DNA of 64,000 nt, from positions 1 through 64,000 of the forward strand of contig JANSYS010000012.1 of assembly GCA_024742275.1 (NCBI GenBank). Direction: 5' to 3'. Each line of letters starts with the position of its first letter. Position 1 is the stretch's first letter. The DNA comes from Alphaproteobacteria bacterium. Lineage in GTDB: Bacteria > Pseudomonadota > Alphaproteobacteria > Thalassobaculales > Thalassobaculaceae. Below the pieces are notes generated by a model. The model saw nothing but the letters and a program-made list of their open reading frames with translations, was not told the DNA's origin and searched no databases. Position numbers and translations under genes: made by a program. This document shows, one piece after another, positions 6,978 to 9,872 of the stretch.

Positions 6978-7721
6978 TCACCCCGTCGCCGCGTCGACCG
7001 CGTCCCACAACGCCCGGTATGCGCCCGCCACCGCCGTGCGCGGGGCGAAGGCGGTCAGCGGTTGCCGCTCGACCCCCATGCGCTCGACCGCGCTGGCATA
7101 GGGGATCGGCACGCCCAGCGTGTTCGTGTGGCTCTTCGGGAAGGTTTCGAGGATCTCGCGGTGTAGGGCTTTCCGTCGGTCGACCATGGAGAAGAACGGC
7201 AGCAGCTTCAGCTTCTTGATCTTCTGTTCCATGCGGAACTCCTCGAGCTGCTCGTAGGTGCGCAGCGATAGGGTGGTCGGGATCAGCGGGATCACCAGCG
7301 CGTCGGCGGCCTCGAATACCGCCTCGGAGACGAGGGAGACACTGGGCGGACAGTCGAGGATGACGACGTCGTAGTCGGCGGAAAGCGGTCTCAGCAGCTT
7401 ACGCAGACGGCTGGTCGACTTCTTCTCGGCTTCCAGCATCAGGTCGAGGTTGCGATAGCGGAAATCGGCCGGAATCAGGTCCAGACTCTCGTAGTCCGTC
7501 TCCTTGATCAGGTCGTCCAGATCGCGCTTGCCGCCGACAAGTCCTTTGCCGCCGCCCTTCACCTTCGGCTTGACCCGGAAATAGAAGCTTGCCGCGCCCT
7601 GGGGGTCGAGATCGATCACCAGAACCCGATGGCCGCGGTCCGCCGCCACGTGGGCGAGATTGACGGCCGCCGCCGTCTTTCCGACGCCGCCCTTGATGTT
7701 GTAGCTCGCCAGGATCCGCAT
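6978..7721 (-). CDS. ParA/MinD-family positioning ATPase
   Basis: A 247-residue protein with the deviant Walker A motif KGGVGKT (10-16), a Walker A' segment VLVIDLDPQGAAS and a Walker B segment DVVILDCPP. This is the full ParA/Soj/McdA core without an N-terminal DNA-binding domain. ParA-type ATPases dimerise on ATP, bind nucleoid DNA and move plasmids, chromosome origins or protein cargo. No parB or parS-like gene lies nearby. Instead the start codon overlaps the stop of the CHAD gene (TGATG), so the CHAD protein is the likely partner. A basic insertion around residues 48-66 (VKPKVKGGGKGLVGGKR) is unusual and could contact DNA or polyanions. Confidence 0.88.
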   Translation of the reverse strand: MRILASYNIKGGVGKTAAAVNLAHVAADRGHRVLVIDLDPQGAASFYFRVKPKVKGGGKGLVGGKRDLDDLIKETDYESLDLIPADFRYRNLDLMLEAEKKSTSRLRKLLRPLSADYDVVILDCPPSVSLVSEAVFEAADALVIPLIPTTLSLRTYEQLEEFRMEQKIKKLKLLPFFSMVDRRKALHREILETFPKSHTNTLGVPIPYASAVERMGVERQPLTAFAPRTAVAGAYRALWDAVDAATG

Positions 7722-9301
7722 CAGTCCTCCTTCCGACGCCGCAGTTGGCGCTTTCCGCCGAAGATGTCATGGAACAGGGCCTGGGTCTGCTCGGCGGCGA
7801 AGACCTCGAAAGCATCGGCGAACTCGGCACGGGCCGCTTGCCGGTCGCTGTCCAGTTCCTCGGTCCAGGCGCCGATCGCCATGAGGGTCTCGGCGTCGCC
7901 GTCTCCACCCTCGGAAAGAACCCGGCCATAGCCGTGGAGCGCCTCGACCTGGATCTCGCGGTCTTGCACCCGTCCAAGCACGTCCTGCAAACCCTTGAGG
8001 GCCTTGATCGCCGGCTTGCTGCGGTCTCGGGGCAGGACTTCGGCGAGGAACTCGGTGACGTATCGCAGCTTCTTCATGCGTTTTCGCAGGTCGTGCAACT
8101 TCTCGGCATCGGTCTCGGGGCCGATTTTCCGACCATCCCGCAGGACCTTGCGCAACAGCTTCGCCGCCCTGGCCGAAACGATCTCGGCGAATGGCGCGCG
8201 TAGGGTCTCGGTTGCCGTCCAGTTGGCACTGGATGGGCTGAGAGTATCGCGCCAGCGCAGGACCAGGCTCCGAAACCGACTGCCGGACAGGTCGAGTACC
8301 AGATCGCGGTGCGCCGTCGTCTTCAGCTCGGCAAGGTGTCGTTCCAAGGCGTCAAGGGCGTGGGGATCGCCCTCCATGCGTTTGCGGCGCCCGGCGAGAT
8401 CCATCATCTGAACATCCAGGTCGCGCACCGGGCTGGTAATCCGTCCGAGCCAACGGAAACCGTCGATCGCCTCGGTGCGCCCTTCGAGGGCGATCGCGTC
8501 GCCGAGTTGGGAGAGAGCGGACCGTGTGCGGCGGATGGCGACCCTAAACTGGTGGAGATAGTCCGGATGACGGTCGGCGAGAACGCCGGGAAGCCGGTCC
8601 TCCATCACGTCGAGCTGCGCCGACAGGATCTCGCGCATCGCCGGACCGGCCGGATCGTCAGGGCGTATATCGTTTTCAGCGGCGGGTGCGGTTCGAGACC
8701 CGTCACCGACGGCGGCAAGCAGCCGGTCGACAGCCGGGGTCTCCGTGACCGCCCAACCGAGCGCGTCGGCAAGGCGTTCTTGCACCCGTTGGGTATCGCG
8801 CTCGTAGCCTTTGAGCGGCTTGACCGTCAGATCGCTCTCCGTCGCACCGTCGTCGGTGGTCGCGGTCGTGAAGACAAGCCGGCTGCGTATTTTGCCGTCC
8901 CTGTCGCGAAGCGCGACGGTGCGTTCGGTCAGGCCGATCTGGATGATCGATTGCAGCGCCCGTCCCTTGGTCAACTCCTCCAGATGCGCCCGCAGCGGTC
9001 CCGTAGGCAGGTCGTCGCCGAAGGCTGCCGGGTGACGCGACAGGGTCTCGGTGGCCAGGACGCCGCCATCCGTCCGGTGGAGCGTCCAGACGTCGCGGTC
9101 GGAGCCGGTCGAGAGACTGGAAAGCCTGCAGCCGCGGCGGGCGAGGCGTCGCGCGACGGTGTCACGAATGATCAAAACGCTCGTTCGGGTCGCTGGACGG
9201 TCCGCCGAGAGATCGCCGCGCGCGGCGTGTATTGCCGCAGCAACACTCCGCTCGTCGGCGGTCCAGGCTGGGGGCGGCACGAAGAAGAGGGGAGAGGTCA
9301 T
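7721..9301 (-). CDS. CHAD-domain protein
   Basis: A 526-residue protein. The C-terminal half (about 222-510) is a CHAD helical domain with its two conserved histidine regions, LHQFRVAIRRTRSAL (His250) and KLHDLRKRMKKLRYV (His403), rich in Arg and Lys. CHAD domains bind inorganic polyphosphate and decorate polyphosphate granules. The N-terminal half (about 35-200) is predicted alpha/beta and may be a divergent CYTH-like (triphosphate tunnel) domain: it has the ESDLTVKPLKGYERD segment but no clear N-terminal ExExK. The gene is immediately upstream of, and translationally coupled to, a ParA ATPase. A role in placing polyphosphate bodies is an inference. Confidence 0.82.
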   Translation of the reverse strand: MTSPLFFVPPPAWTADERSVAAAIHAARGDLSADRPATRTSVLIIRDTVARRLARRGCRLSSLSTGSDRDVWTLHRTDGGVLATETLSRHPAAFGDDLPTGPLRAHLEELTKGRALQSIIQIGLTERTVALRDRDGKIRSRLVFTTATTDDGATESDLTVKPLKGYERDTQRVQERLADALGWAVTETPAVDRLLAAVGDGSRTAPAAENDIRPDDPAGPAMREILSAQLDVMEDRLPGVLADRHPDYLHQFRVAIRRTRSALSQLGDAIALEGRTEAIDGFRWLGRITSPVRDLDVQMMDLAGRRKRMEGDPHALDALERHLAELKTTAHRDLVLDLSGSRFRSLVLRWRDTLSPSSANWTATETLRAPFAEIVSARAAKLLRKVLRDGRKIGPETDAEKLHDLRKRMKKLRYVTEFLAEVLPRDRSKPAIKALKGLQDVLGRVQDREIQVEALHGYGRVLSEGGDGDAETLMAIGAWTEELDSDRQAARAEFADAFEVFAAEQTQALFHDIFGGKRQLRRRKED

Positions 9302-9392: not shown

Positions 9393-9872
9393 CTAGCTTC
9401 TCCGTTCGGTCTTGTCCTGCTTGCGCTGCCGCATTTCCTGGCGCCGCATGGGCATCGCGTCGACGATCTCGAAGAGACGGTCGGCGGTCTGCGGCTCGTC
9501 GCTTCTGAGTTTCACCCCGCCGTCCTTACCGATCAGCAGGATTCCGAATTCGACGATCGAGGGGCCGAACTCCCGGCGGAGCGCCTCGCCATTGATCTCC
9601 AGCGTCGGCCGGCCGTCCACGGAGACAGAGTTATTGACCACTTCCACGACCGTCATGTCCCGATCCGATAGCCCTTGGGATACGTCCTTTAGCCATCCGC
9701 GTTGAACGACCAGGTGCGGATGCAGCTTCAACGGCGCGAAAAGAAGGACCAGGCGGCGCTCCCAGCGGTACTTGTCCAGCGGATCGGCTTGGGCGGGCGA
9801 CGCGATCCCGCCGATCGCCGCGGTGGTCAGCGCGCCGGAGGCGGCCAGTGCCAAAAGCTCCCGTCGTCGCAT
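9393..9872 (-). CDS. Secreted DUF4174 protein
   Basis: A 159-residue protein with a probable signal peptide: MRRRELLALAASGALTTAA, then a small-residue site near ASPAQA-DP (27-31). The mature part starts LDKYRWERRLVLLFAP and resembles the DUF4174 family, thioredoxin-like small exported proteins with no catalytic Cys pair here. The frame is open far upstream, but that extension is antisense to the next gene; the start chosen gives the signal peptide and has an AAAGGGA sequence about 8 bases upstream. Its function is unknown. Confidence 0.75.
   Translation of the reverse strand: MRRRELLALAASGALTTAAIGGIASPAQADPLDKYRWERRLVLLFAPLKLHPHLVVQRGWLKDVSQGLSDRDMTVVEVVNNSVSVDGRPTLEINGEALRREFGPSIVEFGILLIGKDGGVKLRSDEPQTADRLFEIVDAMPMRRQEMRQRKQDKTERRS

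Follow-up and report, generated by a model that had tools for sequence, protein, structure and literature searches.

In the McdAB system for carboxysomes, the gradient of a nucleoid-bound ATPase is shaped by a cargo-bound partner (PMC13052382). For polyphosphate, CHAD domains are reported to bind the polymer and not nucleic acids, and CHAD proteins to be located on polyphosphate granules (PMC6537752); according to a 2025 review, energy expenditure for the localization of polyhydroxybutyrate and polyphosphate granules remains to be seen (PMC13052382). No ParA system proposed for polyphosphate granules was found among the matches listed from the open-licence literature. The adjacency of parA and CHAD as such is already in print for one genus, Acidithiobacillus, where a group of folD, ppk, parA and CHAD genes is described as highly conserved (PMC10892726; PMC6416229). 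The subject here is a CHAD-domain gene lying directly upstream of a ParA-type ATPase gene in a stretch of 64,000 nucleotides (hereafter the window) from an alphaproteobacterium of the Thalassobaculaceae family (contig JANSYS010000012.1 of assembly GCA_024742275.1; contig C68 in our numbering).

The coupling of the CHAD and ParA genes into a conserved, closely joined module is well supported by sequence comparison, and the link of the pair to polyphosphate is also well supported. The two genes probably make up a module that positions or segregates polyphosphate granules. Distant bacterial lineages share the pair, frequently with phosphate-storage genes alongside, which suggests that some bacteria spend ATP on placing these granules. 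An earlier sequence-only reading of the window had proposed the CHAD protein as cargo adaptor and the ATPase as the component that spaces or segregates polyphosphate bodies. This proposal is partly supported by the conserved adjacency, the polyphosphate context and residues, and a degenerate triphosphate tunnel metalloenzyme (TTM) domain in the CHAD protein, whereas positioning itself is what we infer from them.

Table 1. Features of the CHAD-ParA pair in the window (window coordinates)
Feature	Coordinates	Strand	Details
ParA-type ATPase gene	6978-7721	-	247 aa; AAA_31, E = 2.2e-35 (Pfam); member of the CHAD-associated ParA subfamily
CHAD-domain gene	7721-9301	-	526 aa; degenerate TTM + CHAD; candidate granule adaptor
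Deviant Walker A, KGGVGKT, with signature lysine	7674-7694	-	ParA residues 10-16; from the translation
Basic loop	7524-7580	-	ParA residues 48-66
N-terminal TTM/CYTH-fold domain without ExExK	8678-9301	-	CHAD protein residues 1-208
Long CHAD domain, polyphosphate-binding module	7751-8680	-	CHAD protein residues 208-517
Coupled junction	7719-7732	-	AAGGAGG 7726-7732; CHAD stop 7721-7723; ParA ATG 7719-7721

The genes, their limits, their families (Table 1) and the TGATG junction were as that reading had described them. In the junction, the TGA stop of CHAD and the ATG start of ParA overlap by one base, and an AAGGAGG motif lies directly upstream of the overlap. The 17 other linked junctions listed comprise 13 overlaps of 4 nt and four gaps of 1-17 nt. 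The absence of parB and parS nearby also held, with no parS-like site in the window (up to three mismatches to the consensus) and with the ParB_N matches of the source genome confined to contigs C48 and C5, none being on C68. As a second, Soj-like ParA of the same genome lies on C48 beside a ParB_N match, the ParA of the window is an additional one. The source genome had a single CHAD match, one ppk1 and one PPK2. Upstream of CHAD, and likewise on the minus strand, is a DUF4174 gene (9393-9872); DUF4174 was also found near the pair in five of eight family relatives (L031-L035, not L036-L038).

In a search of 61 genomes including that of the window, a ParA orthologue (E<1e-100) was found in nine own-family genomes, and CHAD lay directly upstream of it on the same strand in the window and in the 8/8 others. 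Flanking genes are also conserved around the pair within this family, so that own-family adjacency alone shows little. With a profile of own-family ParAs (A1; ten rows, including one 40%-identical protein), the ParA subfamily was detected in 71 of 398 Pseudomonadota genomes (E<=1e-35; the G207 match looks generic), seven of which (G000, G451, G160, G378, G198, G174 and G214) had CHAD directly upstream of ParA. These seven fall into six family groups from at least two classes. A CHAD match was present in 59/71 subfamily genomes compared to 143/327 of the others (202/398 in total; relatedness not corrected).

When named genomes were scanned with a set of eight linked ParAs (A2), at least 80 loci were obtained, of which 12 were subfamily loci at E<=7e-58 (next match at 2e-31); these and the following counts are among the matches listed and are not a census. 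CHAD was directly upstream of ParA in 8/12 subfamily loci, while 0/68 generic ParA loci had any CHAD within the stretch, an adjacency far beyond chance; one subfamily locus ended at a contig edge. The eight linked loci comprised three from Pseudomonadota (a gammaproteobacterial metagenome-assembled genome (MAG), Thiogranum and Rhodothalassium), four from Actinomycetota (one of them the isolate Prauserella muralis) and one from Desulfobacterales, such that two phyla are supported by isolates and the third by one MAG contig. The CHAD profile (A3), built from eight linked proteins, recovered CHAD in 20/20 control loci. Because the pairing thus recurs across families, classes and phyla, the outcome that the sequence-only reading had named against itself, a lack of conserved adjacency in other genomes, did not occur.

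The pair was also found on plasmids, in 6/6 Paracoccus records among 10 of 11 matching records; these six are not independent, as they represent three species and include four P. marcusii records. A Halomonas plasmid record starts 100 bases before ParA, placing the upstream gene outside the record. Directly upstream of CHAD, two Paracoccus plasmids carry ribbon-helix-helix (RHH)-like genes that fall below the Pfam cut-offs, with ParG among their matches (L261:4288-4476 and L262:4299-4487), and another RHH-like gene, also below the cut-offs, lies upstream of the pair in G378 (L073:6213-6566); these three are incidental finds. Such small proteins are possible third components or autoregulators of the pair.

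Several copies of the pair lie among genes of polyphosphate and phosphate metabolism. In the gammaproteobacterial MAG, one compact region (L091:332-12484) holds CYTH, ppk1, CHAD, ParA, PPK2, a Na/Pi-PhoU cotransporter and a histidine phosphatase, as well as two further genes that received no family assignment. CYTH and NUDIX genes adjoin the pair in G451 and G198, and a histidine phosphatase gene in G160. On the P. marcusii plasmid pCP157_03, the order is RHH-like gene, CHAD, ParA, CYTH, NUDIX and CYTH, and this region lies downstream of pstA, pstB, phoU and phoB, from which it is separated by small hypothetical genes. In the window itself, by open reading frame and Pfam inspection, no polyphosphate or phosphate gene adjoins the pair. 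In addition, ppk1 was present in 7/7 genomes with the adjacency compared to 24/64 other subfamily genomes (relatedness not corrected). The polyphosphate link is strengthened by the occurrence of ppk1, PPK2, CYTH, NUDIX, histidine phosphatase and pst/phoU genes near some copies, and by the conservation of polyphosphate-binding residues described below.

Other phosphate-related arrangements were seen in subfamily genomes. Those with many stand-alone CHADs (G066 and families f59, f62, f65, f70 and f81) had no PPK1 match, and most of them had PPK2 (not G179, G231 and G235), in several cases adjoining CHAD. In family f80, the genes following the pair downstream include PhoU-APH kinase-like and ATP-grasp genes (L076:3381-6968) and one whose weak match to amphi-Trp stays under the cut-off (L075:7090-7440); together they resemble the uncharacterized GAK system.

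The CHAD protein of the window matched Pfam CHAD at residues 225-455 (E = 6.7e-51), and its AlphaFold2 model, built on a 9-row alignment, had a predicted local distance difference test (pLDDT) score of 85.3. Residues 208-517 of the model matched the Chlorobium tepidum CHAD (CtCHAD)-polyphosphate complex (6qva; Z = 32.4 over 306 residues, 2.4 Å), and residues 1 to about 208 matched TTM folds (Z of about 11-13, 158-181 aligned residues). In CtCHAD, mutants place polyphosphate binding at His253, Arg256, Arg260, Arg296 and Arg418/Tyr419, as reported in PMC6537752. These positions map to H250, R253, R257, R293 and R413/Y414 of the window protein, all of which, including Y414, are invariant in alignments of eight and nine linked proteins. 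More broadly, H250, R253, R257, R293, H403, R406, K410 and R413 are kept in 25/25 ParA-linked proteins and in 19-20 of 20 control TTM-CHADs. These controls were picked by an open frame of 492-572 aa, ignoring ExExK; the set is thus non-random and stand-alone CHADs fall outside it.

The N-terminal domain showed the opposite pattern. In TTM/CYTH enzymes, the ExExK motif and the charged tunnel residues are the catalytic residues. ExExK is missing from the window protein and from 22/23 ParA-linked proteins and present in 19/20 controls. Across the 45-protein alignment, eleven charged TTM columns (E4, E6, K8, R58, R60, K71, E97, E99, D157, E172 and E174 in L221 numbering, L221 being a control) are retained by 18-20 of 20 controls, compared to 0-4 of 25 linked proteins. 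The window protein had no CYTH match in Pfam at E<=1, whereas L221 matched CYTH at 4.5e-19. The ParA-linked CHAD protein therefore looks like a pseudo-enzyme that kept the fold and lost ExExK and most tunnel charges, and a polyphosphate enzyme fold seems to have been converted into a structural adaptor. A sequence comparison to the PDB covered three proteins: the nearest entry was CtCHAD for the two linked ones (L071, 1.3e-51; window, 9.5e-31) and Ricinus CHAD for the control (L221, 6.7e-38). A shared C-terminal basic tail, considered as a ParA-activating peptide, was rejected, as this tail is basic in some linked proteins and acidic or neutral in others.

The ParA of the window has intact deviant Walker A (KGGxGK[ST]), Walker A' (DxD) and Walker B (D..P) motifs, and K10, G11, G12, G14, K15, T16, D37, D39, D123 and P126 are invariant in 13 aligned ParA sequences (A5). 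The ParA fold was confirmed by an AlphaFold2 model (pLDDT 89.5) with a query TM-score of 0.93 to 9a6n and 8ray. Its nearest solved folds are Soj and ParA, with McdA ranking lower, and its sequence is likewise closer to Soj/ParA than to McdA. In a PADLOC defence search, ParA gave P-loop matches only (best 6.8e-9, residues 4-39) and CHAD none; a defence role was set aside for want of a convincing PADLOC link to either protein.

Residues 48-66 of ParA had been singled out in the sequence-only reading as a basic insertion and an oddity of this protein. The stretch is indeed basic, as well as flexible (pLDDT 65-72 in blocks 51-70), but it can hardly be called an insertion: its length is about one residue off that of four of the five aligned Soj/ParA structures, Thermus Soj being five residues shorter. 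Moreover, the net charge of the loop is positive in 80/82 subfamily rows outside the sphingomonad-type group f13 (so called because G047 shares the ParA-aat neighborhood of a Sphingomonas record), and ranges from -2 to +1 in f13 (five rows computed); 12 of the 100 ParA rows (three f13 rows, G096 and eight outgroup rows) are without a value. As the loop is of mostly ordinary length and basic across the subfamily, it is a subfamily feature and no oddity of the window protein. It was also rejected as a CHAD-specific mark, since subfamily ParAs far from CHAD bear it too.

In the ParA tree, the subfamily was separated from eight generic outgroup ParAs at 100% support in the Shimodaira-Hasegawa-like approximate likelihood ratio test (SH-aLRT), and CHAD-linked ParAs were scattered through it, including on deep Actinomycetota branches. 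Such a scatter would fit an ancient linkage with losses in a number of lineages but is no proof of it. The CHAD-domain tree was split by a branch, also at 100% SH-aLRT, with 24/25 linked proteins on one side and 20/20 controls on the other. Both were "quick" trees with long branches, the ParA tree being outgroup-rooted and lacking three of the 100 rows (G195 and G215, both fragments, and G207, which looks generic), and the CHAD tree being midpoint-rooted. Among 20 loci from subfamily genomes without adjacency, profile CHADs were found in 17, and ten of these unlinked CHADs entered the tree: five fell on the linked side, and the other five on the control side together with the linked protein L101. 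Of the five on the ParA-linked side, four have a SixA-like start (assigned by eye) followed by CHAD (L245, L246, L247 and L248); they come from f78 genomes and G371, whose subfamily ParA lies elsewhere. The Microthrixaceae pair that includes L101 (L101:4499-6747) has its CHAD on a long branch and may be an intermediate or of separate origin. ParA distances were correlated with CHAD distances across 18 pairs (r = 0.77; p = 2e-4 by permutation, uncorrected for species history), a correlation that could also stem from shared species history.

A mechanism by analogy with carboxysome positioning can be proposed from these features. The CHAD domain would coat the polyphosphate granule, and the degenerate TTM domain or the flexible segments 202-209 and 517-526 would contact ATP-bound ParA dimers on the nucleoid. 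This contact would trigger ATP hydrolysis by ParA, and the resulting ParA gradient would move, space or partition the granules, as McdAB does for carboxysomes; more speculatively, the basic ParA loop might add a contact to DNA or polyphosphate. The degeneracy of the TTM domain lends support to the adaptor idea. To this fuller version, in which a dead tripolyphosphatase would serve both as granule-coating adaptor and as ParB/McdB-like activator of a dedicated ParA subfamily in ATP-driven granule positioning, we give an even chance.

A number of observations weigh against granule positioning. The ppk1 and PPK2 of the source genome sit on other contigs. In 64/71 subfamily genomes, ParA lies away from CHAD, and 12/71 have no CHAD match, including five of the eight f13 genomes; as these f13 genomes have the ParA without CHAD, some subfamily ParAs may serve other cargo. 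Among the matches listed, 3/12 subfamily loci of the named-genome scan (Acidobacteria Mor1, Chitinophagales and Alcanivorax) have no adjacent CHAD, and 6/8 linked loci are MAG contigs, the Desulfobacterales one being 4.4 kb long. Plasmid ParAs of Pontibacter, Marinobacter and Sphingomonas also have no adjacent CHAD, and the ParA frame of one own-family genome (G026) is broken near its start. No conserved ATPase-activating peptide was found. With regard to the linked CHAD proteins, the TTM columns R140 and E176 are kept in 7/25 and D44 in 25/25 of them, and in L101 ExExK is still present and the protein clusters with the catalytic type. Finally, ParA-family proteins also do non-positioning jobs (e.g. 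the Soj-NrdR model among the fold matches), and immediately upstream of one control TTM-CHAD (L237, G417) lies a short ParA of a different type.

In an alternative explanation without granule movement, ParA would act as a regulatory ATPase switch for polyphosphate metabolism: it and the degenerate TTM-CHAD protein would jointly respond to polyphosphate or ATP as sensors and control the PPK, CYTH or NUDIX enzymes. The neighboring enzymes, where present, are metabolic (PPK1, PPK2, CYTH, NUDIX and histidine phosphatase), enzymes or regulators are bound as partners by proteins with the ParA fold (BcsQ, FleN and Soj-NrdR being among the fold matches), and pseudo-enzymes often act as regulators. However, no enzyme is a fixed partner, as the adjacent ones vary, and the ParA model is closest to the Soj/ParA segregation ATPases. 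Together with the reported position of CHAD proteins on the granules themselves (PMC6537752), this makes such a switch rather unlikely in our estimation.

Another alternative is that the pair segregates DNA, with the CHAD protein replacing ParB, possibly together with a small RHH protein, or with granules carrying replicons. In Paracoccus, the copies lie on plasmids, and the two that were translated have a gene for a 62-aa RHH/ParG-like protein (below the Pfam cut-offs) directly upstream; yet other copies are clearly chromosomal (G004 on a 5.5 Mb contig and G160 on a 3.7 Mb contig), Pfam found no DNA-binding domain in the CHAD protein, and CHAD domains are described as binding polyphosphate and not nucleic acids (PMC6537752), so that DNA segregation appears improbable. 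That the adjacency reflects hitchhiking without a functional link could be argued from the 64 subfamily ParAs located elsewhere and from the conserved own-family flanking synteny. It is hard to reconcile with the recurrence of the adjacency in distant lineages, the overlapping junctions, the 0/68 generic ParA loci with CHAD among the matches listed, and the 24/25 linked proteins held by one CHAD subclass, and we consider it very improbable.

The G417 locus was inspected as a candidate second type of CHAD-linked ParA. Three genes stand side by side there (L271:6432-9121), for a histidine phosphatase-like protein, the 215-aa short ParA and an intact TTM-CHAD. Close relatives of this ParA were found in 19 genomes, with direct adjacency in G417 only among the matches listed; a relative in G328 lies about 3.5 kb from CHAD, and in the remaining genomes the places of ParA and CHAD were compared by eye. 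The candidate was therefore rejected, and the G417 neighborhood is probably regional synteny.

If granule positioning by the pair is correct, the cargo of this ParA system would be an inorganic polymer. The pair bears on how polyphosphate granules are placed in bacterial cells and divided between them, and two candidate genes can now be named in Paracoccus marcusii, P. aestuarii, Rhodothalassium salexigens and Prauserella muralis. The solved C. tepidum CHAD-polyphosphate complex may also gain biological context from the ParA-linked CHADs, because in the three-protein comparison it was nearest to the two linked proteins and not to the one of catalytic type.

Compared to known systems, the pair resembles McdA/McdB in combining a ParA-type ATPase with a partner gene, McdA structures are among the fold matches of its ParA, and the mechanism proposed here is that of McdAB by analogy. 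It differs in that the partner is a degenerate TTM-CHAD protein instead of McdB, the cargo would be an inorganic polymer granule, and the ParA sequence is nearer to Soj/ParA. The ParA fold and motifs are shared with ParABS systems, unlike the setting, with no ParB_N on contig C68 and no parS-like site in the window. AlgP and PhaM likewise organize granules via the nucleoid (PMC13052382; PMC9239181), but as DNA-binding tethers with no ATPase. Among CHAD proteins (phosins), CtCHAD (6qva) has the same long CHAD domain, whereas the window protein is joined to a ParA and bears a degenerate TTM domain. The YgiF-type TTM-CHAD tripolyphosphatases have the same domain order and fold (5a60), but ExExK and most conserved tunnel charges are lost in the linked proteins, which lie opposite the TTM-CHAD controls in the tree (YgiF itself being outside it).

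The Acidithiobacillus cluster, compared by its published description, is similar in that parA, CHAD and ppk occur together in a conserved gene group. The topics of the papers concerned are copper resistance and cyclic AMP (PMC10892726; PMC6416229), the CHAD protein being described as a CYTH-type cyclase (PMC6416229); the terms "segregation", "positioning" and "localization" did not turn up in a term search of PMC10892726. Beyond this published adjacency, the recurrence of the module across phyla and the degeneration of the TTM domain in the CHAD partner are new here.

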